From a virus, in IMG/VR virus record IMGVR_UViG_3300029908_000059, positions 1 to 40,852 of that record: a DNA stretch of 40,852 nt, one strand, 5' to 3'. The notes under the pieces were generated by a model. The model saw only the letters and a program-made list of their open reading frames with translations. It was not told the origin of the DNA and ran no database searches. This document shows positions 2,204 through 6,325 of this stretch, in pieces. Position numbers and translations under genes: made by a program. Numbering within the stretch: the first letter of the stretch is position 1; each line of letters begins with the position of its first letter.

Positions 2204-2277
2204 TGGTTGCGCAGAAAGGAATTGCACCCTTGTCTCTAGGTTATGAGCCTAGCGTGAAACTGCTTCACTACCGCGCA
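2204..2277 (-). tRNA. tRNA-Met (anticodon CAT)
   Basis: A complete 74-nt cloverleaf can be folded by eye on the minus strand: acceptor TGCGCGG/CTGCGCA (one G-T pair), D stem GTGA/TCAC, anticodon stem CTAGG/CCTAG with loop CTCATAA, four-base variable loop AGAC, T stem AAGGG/CCTTT with loop TGCAATT, then A and an encoded CCA. The CAT anticodon can mean elongator Met, initiator Met or lysidine-modified Ile2. The D loop (AGCAGTT) lacks the usual GG pair. The tRNA sits just downstream of the intein-bearing MuF gene. Confidence 0.88.
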
Positions 2278-2289
2278 GCATTTTACATA

Positions 2290-4128
2290 TCACCGAATGA
2301 CTGGAATTGCAACACACCTACAGTTTGACACAATGGCACTTGTTGCTGTATAGTATCCAATATCAACTTGGAGATTATAAATATGGCCAATATAAAGAGC
2401 GCTTCTAACGCTAATAACTCTATCAAGCGTGGTGGCCATAACAGATTGCAATTCGATGTGAAACCCATCATCGATGCTTATATCTCTGGTGAAAGTGAAC
2501 TTTCCATCTCTAAGCGTACCGGCCTTGAACGTGTTGTTATCCGCCGAAGGCTTATTGAAAATGGTGTTGCCATCAGAAGCATTTCTGAGGCTAACAAAAT
2601 TAGAATGAGTAAGCTTACCTTTGAAGAAAGATGCAAACTTACTGAGGCGTCGCACAAAGGATGCAAAGCTATACCAAAATCCAAAAGAACAAAGATGCTC
2701 GAAAAATCTGCTAATGCACATTGCAAAAAAATCGGAGAGGGAGAGCAAGAGGTTATTGATGCTATTTCTTTGCTTAATATCCCCATAAAATCCCAAGTTG
2801 CGTGTGGCGTCTATAATATCGATATTACGTGTGGAACCGTCGCCGTGGAAATCTACAAGATGCCCCGCAGCAGTGTTGAAAAGAAAAGATTCCCGCAAAG
2901 ATTTAAATATCTCTCGGATAGAGGTTTCACCCTGATTTGCGTCTGTTTCACTAGAATTGAGCAACTCTTGGGGAATCTTAATGATGTAGTCAGACTCATT
3001 GATTTTACTTATAGGCTTCCAACCACTGACCGTAAGCATAGGATGATTAGGTGTGGCTCTAATCGTTTCTCCCGATTCAAGAATGATCTGGGTCAATTCT
3101 CCGCAATACCAGCGGCGGAAACATTTTTCTATTCTACCGAAAATATTAATCCGTGAGTTACCGGGAAAACAATTCCAATCCTCACCCGGATTATTTCGCG
3201 CACCTGTTTTCTGATCTGTTATAGGTGGGTTATCCCATCTAAACACTTTACCATTAAGCTTGCGATGATCAGGACGCTCACGCGCATCATTAGCTCCGCT
3301 CCACCTATATTCCTCAATGCCCATATCCTTGTAACGACTCTCTTGAAACTTAGACATAAGTAATGCTGTTTCTTGCCGAGCGAGGAATTTAGCCTTGCGT
3401 TGCGATACACCATAGTTTTCCGAAATCATTTTTACTAAGCTCTGCGCACGACCACCATCTAAAATATGCGTTTGAATGGACTGTCTTAAGCTCAATATAT
3501 TGTCCTGCGACCATTTCTTAATGTATAAATCAAGGTTATCGCTCCACTCCTCAGCTATTTTCTCTTTCATTGCATCGGTCAATTGCGCCTCAATTACTAG
3601 TTTTGAACGCGCCGTGGCGGGTGCATCAGTGGGATTTGTTTCACCCTTTGGTATGGTTTTCTGTAAATCACTCTCCATAGATGAAAGGGTTTTTTCATAA
3701 GACCTCGTAGTTTGTGAAATCAAATCAACATTATCAATATCAACATTATCTAGTGTATTCAATAGCTTATCGCACAATCTATTGTAACGCGCATCCGCCG
3801 TTGCCTGCGCAAACTTCACATCTGAGGGTACATGGCTTTGCTCTAATCTCCATGTGCGCGTGCTTTTTTTAAACGTCGCGCCGATGCGCATAAGCTCTTT
3901 AGTTATCTTGGCACTGTATTGACCATAGAACTCACCATTTTGATACCACACATTGCCCATAGCAATAGCATCGAGCAACGCATTCGCGCTGTTTTTGAAC
4001 TCTTTCATGCGCGTGCCTAGCGATTCAAATACAGGCTGATAAATAAGACGGTCAAATATGCGCTGAATTTCTTTTTCAATTTCGCTATAGTAATGCTCTT
4101 TGACTATAAGGGGAGGGAGTTGGAGCAT
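2290..4128 (-). CDS. MuF-like phage head morphogenesis protein interrupted by an intein
   Basis: 612-residue precursor. Residues 1-319 and 603-612 form the MuF/SPP1 gp7-like minor head protein, seen in RKAKFLARQETALLMSKFQE, RPDHRKLNGKVFRWD and the family's C-terminal motif NPGEDWN + CRCVAIPV. Residues Cys320-Asn602 are an intein inserted between the N and C of that motif. Splicing would give a 329-residue protein of normal family size. I chose ATG 4128 because AGGGGG lies 8 nt upstream; a GTG at 4137 is less likely. It overlaps the preceding small Cys-rich gene and follows the portal gene, the usual site. The head-assembly role comes from the family; splicing is predicted, not shown. Confidence 0.85.
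   Translation of the reverse strand: MLQLPPLIVKEHYYSEIEKEIQRIFDRLIYQPVFESLGTRMKEFKNSANALLDAIAMGNVWYQNGEFYGQYSAKITKELMRIGATFKKSTRTWRLEQSHVPSDVKFAQATADARYNRLCDKLLNTLDNVDIDNVDLISQTTRSYEKTLSSMESDLQKTIPKGETNPTDAPATARSKLVIEAQLTDAMKEKIAEEWSDNLDLYIKKWSQDNILSLRQSIQTHILDGGRAQSLVKMISENYGVSQRKAKFLARQETALLMSKFQESRYKDMGIEEYRWSGANDARERPDHRKLNGKVFRWDNPPITDQKTGARNNPGEDWNCFPGNSRINIFGRIEKCFRRWYCGELTQIILESGETIRATPNHPMLTVSGWKPISKINESDYIIKIPQELLNSSETDANQGETSIREIFKSLRESFLFNTAAGHLVDFHGDGSTRNIDIIDATRNLGFYGDIKQRNSINNLLLSLSDFFAMCISRFFEHLCSFGFWYSFASFVRRLSKFASFFKGKLTHSNFVSLRNASDGNTIFNKPSADNNTFKAGTLRDGKFTFTRDISIDDGFHIELQSVMATTLDRVISVRSALYIGHIYNLQVDIGYYTATSAIVSNCRCVAIPVIR
2325..2354 (+). promoter_or_regulatory. Sigma70-like promoter for the antisense endonuclease ORF
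   Basis: TTGACA (2325-2330), 18-nt spacer, TATAGT (2349-2354). It lies 28 nt upstream of the ATG at 2383 and is wholly inside intein coding DNA. The -35 hexamer lies over the last codons of the intein (Val-Ser-Asn), exactly at the C-terminal splice junction. Confidence 0.6.
2383..3156 (+). CDS. Putative Vsr/EDxHD-type homing endonuclease, antisense inside the intein
   Basis: 257 residues from ATG 2383. GGAG (2370-2373) lies 9 nt upstream; a TTG at 2368 in the same frame is less likely. Residues about 20-65 form a resolvase-like helix-turn-helix (SELSISKRTGLERVVIRRRL, then NGVAIRS). Residues about 118-205 look like a PD-(D/E)XK/Vsr-like nuclease core: an acidic GEGEQEVI, GVYNIDI with Asp147, VAVEI with Glu156, then a basic RFPQRFKYLSDRGFTLI segment. 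This is the arrangement of free-standing Vsr-like (EDxHD) phage homing endonucleases. The His of that motif is not obvious. The whole ORF lies within intein DNA, in codon register with it. Expression and activity are inferred. Confidence 0.72.
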   Translation: MANIKSASNANNSIKRGGHNRLQFDVKPIIDAYISGESELSISKRTGLERVVIRRRLIENGVAIRSISEANKIRMSKLTFEERCKLTEASHKGCKAIPKSKRTKMLEKSANAHCKKIGEGEQEVIDAISLLNIPIKSQVACGVYNIDITCGTVAVEIYKMPRSSVEKKRFPQRFKYLSDRGFTLICVCFTRIEQLLGNLNDVVRLIDFTYRLPTTDRKHRMIRCGSNRFSRFKNDLGQFSAIPAAETFFYSTENINP

Positions 4129-4268
4129 GGCATGCACCCCCTTTCGGTCAATATAACAAAGTAGCTTTTATAAAATTCGCGCTTAATACCGTCATAGCAA
4201 TCTTGGCAAGTGCTATAAGGATCAATTAATTTCTTCTTTTCTTCCTCGCAACATGCACACTTCATCAT
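4104..4268 (-). CDS. Small Cys-rich protein between portal and MuF genes
   Basis: 54 residues beginning MMKCACCEEEKKK, with Cys pairs (CACC and CQDC) spaced like a small zinc-binding knuckle, and further Cys near the end. Its ATG overlaps the portal stop (ATGA), which suggests translational coupling, and its 3' end overlaps the MuF start by 25 nt. The tight fit in the operon supports a real gene. No function recognised. Confidence 0.6.
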   Translation of the reverse strand: MMKCACCEEEKKKLIDPYSTCQDCYDGIKREFYKSYFVILTERGCMPCSNSLPL

Positions 4269-5680: not shown

Positions 5681-6325
5681 TTACCGTTTCTTTGGCGTTT
5701 TTAACGCTTCCATAATATCCCAGCCCAATCGAAGTCTATCATAAACTAGGGATGGTTTTATACCATAAATTTCTGCCGCCTCAGAAATAGCCATATTCTT
5801 TCCATCAATTTCGACAAGAGTAACTCCACGTTTATTTCTATTTTGCTCCTTCGCCGTAGCCCATCGACAGTTTCCTGGCTCATAATTTCCATCGTTGTTT
5901 GGCCATCTATCTATGCTATGATTTCTTGATGGTCTTTTGCCCATATCTTCAAAAAAGTTTTCAAAAGACAACCACCTTTTGCATACAGCTATATTTCTCC
6001 CACCATAAAGATAATAGTTAGGCGCATTGGGATTTAAACATCTCTGCTTCATGGAATTCCACGTTATATAAGTAGGAGTGCTTAACATTGAATGCTTTGT
6101 TACCGCATCCTTCTGGGCGCACCCACAGCTAGTGGTTTTTCCTCTTCTTATACTACTTGCTCTTGTAATAATTACATTTCCACAGACGCATTTACATTCC
6201 CATAAACTGTTACACTTACCATCATTCCCAGCATAATTAATAACAGTAAGAAGGCCATATACATGCCCGATTCTATTTACAAAGGTTTTTACAAGAGGAA
6301 TTTTATGCATAATCCCCCATACCAT
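5681..6325 (-). CDS. HNH-type free-standing homing endonuclease
   Basis: 214 residues. A Cys-rich knuckle (WECKCVCGN at about residue 43, SCGCAQKD about 66) is followed by the HNH-like core (HSIDRWPNNDGNYEPGNCRW, about 135-155) and KEQNRNKR. The C-terminus has a NUMOD-like DNA-binding segment (MAISEAAEIYGIKPSLVYDR). Such proteins nick or cut intron-less or intein-less alleles and spread between phages. It is inserted between large terminase and portal, and its stop lies 3 nt before the portal start. ATG 6325 or ATG 6310 could start it. It is co-oriented with the structural genes, unlike the antisense endonuclease at 2383. Confidence 0.82.
   Translation of the reverse strand: MVWGIMHKIPLVKTFVNRIGHVYGLLTVINYAGNDGKCNSLWECKCVCGNVIITRASSIRRGKTTSCGCAQKDAVTKHSMLSTPTYITWNSMKQRCLNPNAPNYYLYGGRNIAVCKRWLSFENFFEDMGKRPSRNHSIDRWPNNDGNYEPGNCRWATAKEQNRNKRGVTLVEIDGKNMAISEAAEIYGIKPSLVYDRLRLGWDIMEALKTPKKR

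Follow-up and report, generated by a model that had tools for sequence, protein, structure and literature searches.

An intein in a phage head protein gene with a predicted homing endonuclease encoded antisense and in codon register

Introduction

Canonical mobile inteins, such as PI-SceI and PI-PfuI, carry an in-frame homing endonuclease that is part of the same polypeptide. Fractured split inteins have a gene for an EDxHD/Vsr-like nuclease between their halves, and a nuclease of this type, I-Bth0305I, is represented by the structure 3r3p. ShiLan-type insertions in phage methylases contain a hidden HNH nuclease encoded on the same strand, and no splicing domain was found in them (PMC11855218). 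Antisense homing endonuclease genes have been described in nuclear group I introns, where I-DsqI was shown to be an active enzyme (PMC9548176). The Rodin-Ohno hypothesis deals with in-register coding on both strands, in ancient ancestors and in designed model genes (PMC4082485). A preprint by Gosselin et al. (bioRxiv 10.1101/2025.01.02.630785), the title of which is cited in PMC11855218, concerns actinophage inteins with "non-canonical architecture".

Here we analyze a locus within a 40,852-nucleotide stretch of viral DNA (IMG/VR record IMGVR_UViG_3300029908_000059, hereafter the window), which very likely encodes a mobile intein whose homing endonuclease is antisense to it and in codon register. 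Its splicing, expression and DNA cleavage are inferred. The locus resembles canonical mobile inteins in having a Hint domain, a nuclease encoded between blocks B and F, and a pattern of spread into empty alleles. However, it does not meet their definition of an in-frame nuclease, since the opposite strand encodes the nuclease as a separate protein and the sense linker represents no more than the complement of the nuclease gene. With the fractured split inteins it shares the combination of an intein with a separate Vsr-like nuclease gene, the core of which best matches 3r3p, whereas the intein of the present locus is continuous, with the nuclease gene inside its coding sequence but on the other strand. 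The locus is not a fractured gene, because the host protein and intein form a single open reading frame of 615 residues, and complete relatives are also continuous except for one (locus L009). As in the ShiLan-type insertions, an insertion that is open in the host frame conceals a homing nuclease in a different frame. In contrast to them, the nuclease is on the opposite strand and is Vsr-like instead of HNH, and a genuine intein with a splicing domain is present. The placement of a homing gene opposite its self-splicing host element recalls I-DsqI, although the host element of I-DsqI is an RNA intron and that nuclease shares no codons with another protein. As in the Rodin-Ohno hypothesis, two unrelated protein families are encoded on opposite strands with codons in register, whereas the present case is living, natural and under selection.

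Results

The intein and the antisense nuclease

One continuous open reading frame on the minus strand (2290-4137) encodes a MuF-like head protein together with the intein (Table 1). The intein is flanked by ...GEDWN on its N-terminal side and by CRCVAIPVIR and the stop codon on its C-terminal side. The insertion meets the intein profile PF14890 (E=7.6e-10) and has the sequence hallmarks of inteins, namely C1, T40-H43, N283 and the Cys+1 nucleophile. The first cysteine, the TxxH/TPNH motif, the terminal asparagine and Cys+1 are retained in nearly all relatives. The structure model of the intein has a low overall quality (pLDDT 51). Its ends are structured and its middle is disordered, with low confidence for residues 127-246, and the structures nearest to this weak model in a Foldseek search are inteins. 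No nuclease family of Pfam matches the sense linker, which is predicted to be disordered. A tRNA-Met gene (2204-2277, minus strand) is located directly 3' of the stop codon of the MuF gene.

The nuclease frame on the plus strand extends from an ATG at 2383 to a TGA at 3154-3156. The nuclease of the window alone had no match in Pfam, and searches of NCBIfam and the PDB with the single sequence returned nothing useful. It was identified only through alignments and structure prediction. Ten of the 18 aligned relatives match REase_MTES_1575, several match helix-turn-helix (HTH) families, and the matches to the Vsr, DUF559 and MTES_1575 families of Pfam among the relatives are weak. Members of the family have one or two HTH domains. 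The model calculated from the alignment of 18 relatives is confident (mean pLDDT 82.5). In it, a helix-turn-helix is followed by a helical stretch, the alpha-beta core of the nuclease and, at the C-terminus, a beta hairpin. The best match of the model in the PDB, found using Foldseek, is the catalytic domain of I-Bth0305I (3r3p; probability 1.00, target TM 0.70). The second structural match is the DUF559-like protein 3hrl, also with a probability of 1.00, which was additionally found by sequence profile (E=4e-4). The Foldseek E-value of the nuclease matches is modest (2e-3) despite the probability of 1.00. Residues E121, D147, E156 and R173 are invariant across 18 diverse members and look catalytic, which is inferred in the absence of cleavage data.

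An initial annotation of the window, made without database searches, had placed a complete intein (Cys1-Asn283, Cys +1) at 2323-3171 in a MuF-like protein, and these coordinates proved exact. Its expectation of a Hint fold in the minus-strand frame was borne out by Pfam and by the inteins identified by Foldseek. The 257-codon plus-strand frame at 2383-3156, with a start 60 nt from one end of the intein and a stop 15 nt from the other, was also confirmed exactly. The proposed HTH and Vsr/EDxHD-like core are supported by the match to I-Bth0305I and by the weak profiles of the relatives; the histidine to which the EDxHD name refers is not one of the invariant residues.

Table 1. Features of the head protein gene, its intein and the antisense nuclease, in coordinates of the window
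Feature	Coordinates	Strand	Evidence
N-extein, MuF-like minor head/head-morphogenesis protein, ending ...GEDWN	3172..4137	-	Pfam Phage_Mu_F E=2.8e-17; PHROG head morphogenesis
Complete intein, 283 aa, Cys1...Asn283	2323..3171	-	Pfam Intein_splicing E=7.6e-10; inteins as best Foldseek hits
Intein block B (GETIRATPNHPMLTVSGW, TxxH motif)	3019..3072	-	T40-P41-N42-H43 invariant in intein alignment
Intein linker, complement of nuclease core and HTH; mostly disordered by prediction	2431..2964	-	Model confidence; substitution pattern
Intein block F (GHIYNLQV), complement of nuclease Shine-Dalgarno sequence and ATG	2365..2388	-	Motif position, alignment
Intein block G (AIVSN)	2323..2337	-	Alignment
C-extein, Cys+1 (CRCVAIPVIR) and stop	2290..2322	-	Sequence; N^C[RK]C site common to relatives
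Putative sigma-70-like promoter TTGACA-18-TATAGT, within block G and F codons	2325..2354	+	Pattern, recurrence in relatives; function inferred
Shine-Dalgarno GGAG of nuclease	2370..2373	+	Faces Leu codon CTC in 18/23 relatives
Antisense homing endonuclease gene (predicted), 257 codons and stop, in exact codon register with intein	2383..3156	+	Open reading frame, alignment, structure model
HTH region of nuclease, model residues 27-59	2461..2559	+	Structure model; HTH profiles of relatives
Vsr/DUF559/EDxHD-like nuclease core, residues 116-211; invariant E121, D147, E156, R173	2728..3015	+	Alignment, model
C-terminal beta hairpin of nuclease, residues 220-254, facing intein blocks A/B; doubly constrained zone	3040..3144	+	Model, alignments, wobble sites

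Codon register and open frames

The reverse complement of each nuclease codon n is exactly intein codon 264-n. With this register, the intein remains open only if the codons TTA, CTA and TCA are absent from the nuclease, and vice versa. The nuclease contains none of these codons against 10.9 expected (p=1.8e-6), and the intein frame contains none against 13.4 expected (p=8e-8), as calculated from the codon usage of the window's own genome. Both frames are also found in every close relative. The intein frame across from the nuclease has no stops in the matched region of nearly every relative examined, whereas the other two antisense frames contain several to dozens. The exception among the inteins is L009, with a single in-frame stop in the intein linker and an intact antisense nuclease; the stop may be a sequencing error, a site of recoding or a sign of a dying intein. 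This locus (L009:3532-4398) comes from IMGVR_UViG_3300038428_000252, and the same contig was also read as L017 and L168.

Start signals of the nuclease

The start codon of the nuclease is complementary to the histidine codon of block F, and the Asn-Leu-Gln codons that come next in the intein are complementary to the GGAGG-like ribosome site of the nuclease. The leucine of block F is encoded by CTC in 18 of 23 relatives, compared to 6.7 expected (z=5.4). This excess indicates selection for the ribosome site, beyond that for leucine alone. The initial annotation had also assigned the nuclease a promoter of its own. The promoter sequence is present; its pattern alone is not above chance, since shuffled sequences yield 2.1 such patterns per region. 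A promoter of the TTGACA/TATAAT type recurs in the close relatives L014, L015 and L009, and many relatives, including more distant ones, lack clear TTGACA/TATAAT elements. Therefore, recurrence in close relatives is the only support for the promoter, and its function is inferred from sequence alone.

Selection acts on both frames

The nuclease is 51-61% identical between the window and its closest relatives, compared to 36-44% for the intein. Substitutions were counted by codon position in nine genomes of the Jerseyvirus group. In the linker next to the HTH, variable columns fall at nuclease position 3 in 72/110 cases, at position 1 in 37/110, and at position 2 in 18/110, and the excess at position 3 is significant relative to both position 2 (p=9e-14) and position 1 (p=4e-6). 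In these nine genomes, the sense linker merely follows the substitutions of the nuclease. Blocks F and G, which lie outside the nuclease, vary at intein position 3 in 9/20 codons and at each of the other positions in 1/20. The conserved mid-intein residues F108, H109-G110-D111 and L126 are complements of the likewise conserved nuclease residues V153-A154-V155-E156 and Q138.

In the zone of blocks A and B, conserved intein residues diverge less at their fourfold wobble sites than the N-extein does, in 12/12 pairs. The pooled differences are about 92/245 (~0.38) for the A/B zone and 463/664 (~0.70) for the N-extein. The pooling was performed by hand and the pairs partly share sequences; within the Jerseyvirus group alone, the constraint on A/B-zone wobble sites is weak. 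Selection thus maintains the nuclease across the linker, the intein at blocks F and G, and both where blocks A and B face the C-terminal hairpin of the nuclease. We also considered that the C-terminus of the nuclease is a mere shadow of blocks A and B. This was rejected because a free-standing homolog aligns through the hairpin and because the intein wobble sites are constrained.

A free-standing nuclease in Acinetobacter phage IME285

Acinetobacter phage IME285 (L051:458-1348) has an uninterrupted MuF gene, and a relative of the nuclease immediately adjoins it on the other strand. The IME285 nuclease aligns with the embedded ones over its full length, including the hairpin, and the frame opposite to it contains 8-13 stops. 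IME285 represents a natural control, in which no intein is present and the frame facing the nuclease has not stayed open. In a phylogenetic tree, this copy, the only free one included, is nested among the embedded nucleases (support 98/89), which suggests that it escaped from an intein and is not their ancestor. The alternative of a free-standing ancestor of the embedded nucleases was considered; the nesting of the IME285 copy speaks against it, with the reservation that the root of the tree is unknown. The same protein is encoded by phage BUCT629, and P1068 also contains a match.

Distribution and spread of the intein

Relatives of the nuclease or the intein were found in 122 and 124 phage records, which include phages of Salmonella (Jerseyvirus), Klebsiella, Pseudomonas, Vibrio, Edwardsiella, Aggregatibacter and Gordonia. 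Further relatives are encoded at 242 IMG/VR loci. From these, 80 were retained and 79 analyzed, with 61 distinct. At the loci tested, with the exception of IME285, the nuclease is antisense and in the same register, inside an intein that interrupts a minor capsid protein of the MuF type or a related one. The insertion is usually located just upstream of a C-x-C motif. The intein of the Kagunavirus Escherichia phage fEg-Eco06 (L041:2501-3394) has the same antisense in-register nuclease; this intein is too diverged to be detected by tblastn, and the record annotates a "minor head protein with inserted intein". The arrangement of an intein with an antisense nuclease is therefore a widespread class, present in dozens of lineages that include well-known cultured phages. 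The host frame of L123 (2302-4788, minus strand) combines MuF, the intein and a C-terminal domain of the ADP-ribosyltransferase type (PF03496). The sole match to the nuclease in the plasmid collection, NZ_LN890657.1 (Candidatus Promineifilum breve), underlies a gene annotated as a phage minor head protein. No relatives were found in GTDB genome contigs using two patterns derived from the alignment, and bacterial chromosomes are thus poorly sampled.

The search of relatives of the window's own MuF N-extein did not identify a close empty-site allele, and mobility was therefore assessed in Jerseyvirus. The flanks of the Jerseyvirus MuF site are present in 495 phage records, compared to only 72 for the intein. 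Salmonella phage FSL SP-101 has an exact empty site, and the site is empty in most relatives, with the flanks matching in one piece. The inteins of phages vB_StyS-sam and dunkel are identical in 816/816 bases, whereas the adjacent N-exteins are 61-81% identical over most of their length. Identical inteins in diverged hosts are the pattern that homing would leave, which provides indirect support for cleavage of the empty site and for homing, both of which are inferred. Ordinary recombination between co-infecting phages, without a nuclease, could also explain the horizontal identity.

Discussion

The computational evidence establishes both folds, the codon register, the conservation and selection of both frames, the embedded start of the nuclease, the horizontal spread, and the presence of empty sites. 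The initial annotation had named three outcomes that would refute it: no nuclease fold, an unconstrained antisense frame, or no Hint fold. None of them came true. Homologous phages that keep both frames were found, and related inteins hold the antisense frame open and under constraint. The strict codon register, the occurrence in dozens of lineages, the start inside block F and the horizontal spread had gone unnoticed.

Based on these results, a mechanism can be proposed. The late head-gene transcript would be translated into the MuF precursor, in which the Hint halves (A/B and F/G) would meet over the long, mostly unstructured linker, and the intein would be spliced out to leave ...N-CRC.... 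A separate transcript from the opposite strand, starting within blocks G/F, would encode the stand-alone nuclease with an HTH and an EDxHD/Vsr-like core, perhaps made at a different time from the head protein. MuF genes without the intein may be cut by the nuclease, on the N^C codon junction or close to it, and would then be repaired with an intein-bearing copy as the template, so that the whole element spreads.

Three other explanations were evaluated. The antisense protein may be real and no longer serve homing, acting instead as a DNA-binding regulator, or its transcript may control the expression of the head gene. The one or two HTH domains fit this reading, and a late gene could be regulated by antisense transcription across it. 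However, the catalytic-type residues E, D, E and R are invariant across the 18 diverse members, the element spread horizontally in recent times and is patchily present, and the nuclease is found only inside the intein or directly adjoining the target gene. We consider a purely regulatory role improbable. Alternatively, the intein may no longer splice, the head protein having come to tolerate or lose the interrupted form, and the sense frame would be the relic of a nuclease gene inserted backwards. The unstructured linker of the model and the linker stop of one relative could be taken in favor of this. Nevertheless, the splicing residues Cys1, TPNH, terminal Asn and Cys+1 persist in nearly all relatives, blocks F and G vary almost solely at intein wobble sites, and the frame is open in dozens of lineages, in MuF-type proteins that are head components. 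The loss of splicing is therefore also very improbable. Finally, the plus-strand frame as a passive shadow of a real intein, kept open by codon bias, is consistent with the relative ease with which in-register antisense frames stay open and with the lack of a Pfam match of the window's nuclease alone, but it is practically ruled out by the higher conservation of the nuclease frame than of the intein frame, its variation chiefly at its own third position, the nuclease fold and selected ribosome site, and the full-length free-standing homolog without any intein.

The mobile intein with an antisense homing endonuclease thus remains the preferred reading. A bolder interpretation, which we regard as likely, is that these loci represent an unnamed class of mobile inteins, in which a splicing domain and a homing endonuclease are encoded codon against codon, both have long been under selection, and the ribosome site of the nuclease, and in some lineages its promoter, are embedded in the intein motifs. 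The initial annotation had held that such an architecture is not known to be a described class. The literature searched, which excludes Gosselin et al. 2025, contained no description of a continuous intein whose nuclease is encoded antisense and in register. That preprint may already describe part of the class, and its data could include the Gordonia phages of the present survey.

If the bolder interpretation is correct, the locus is a natural, living example of in-register double-strand coding of the Rodin-Ohno type. Few long, fully overlapping antisense gene pairs have been shown to be under selection on both strands, and such cases are usually disputed. The present case comprises dozens of lineages, two recognizable folds, and a free-standing homolog as a natural control, and offers a tractable system in which to study sense/antisense coding in register, as assumed by the Rodin-Ohno hypothesis. 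Cultured members (Jerseyvirus, Kagunavirus and Gordonia phages) make the claim testable at the bench. The arrangement would also explain how a nuclease carried by an intein can be expressed independently of the late host gene. Antisense homing genes have been overlooked in well-known phage genomes, where the frame is mostly unannotated or hypothetical.

The antisense nuclease of Salmonella phage PK1 (L042) is annotated as the hypothetical protein XRA40086.1, and the frame is unannotated in most of the other records examined. The phage of the window also has a second homing-type gene, which encodes a free-standing HNH endonuclease (5681-6325, minus strand; PHROG HNH endonuclease E=6e-68) and is located between the terminase and portal genes.
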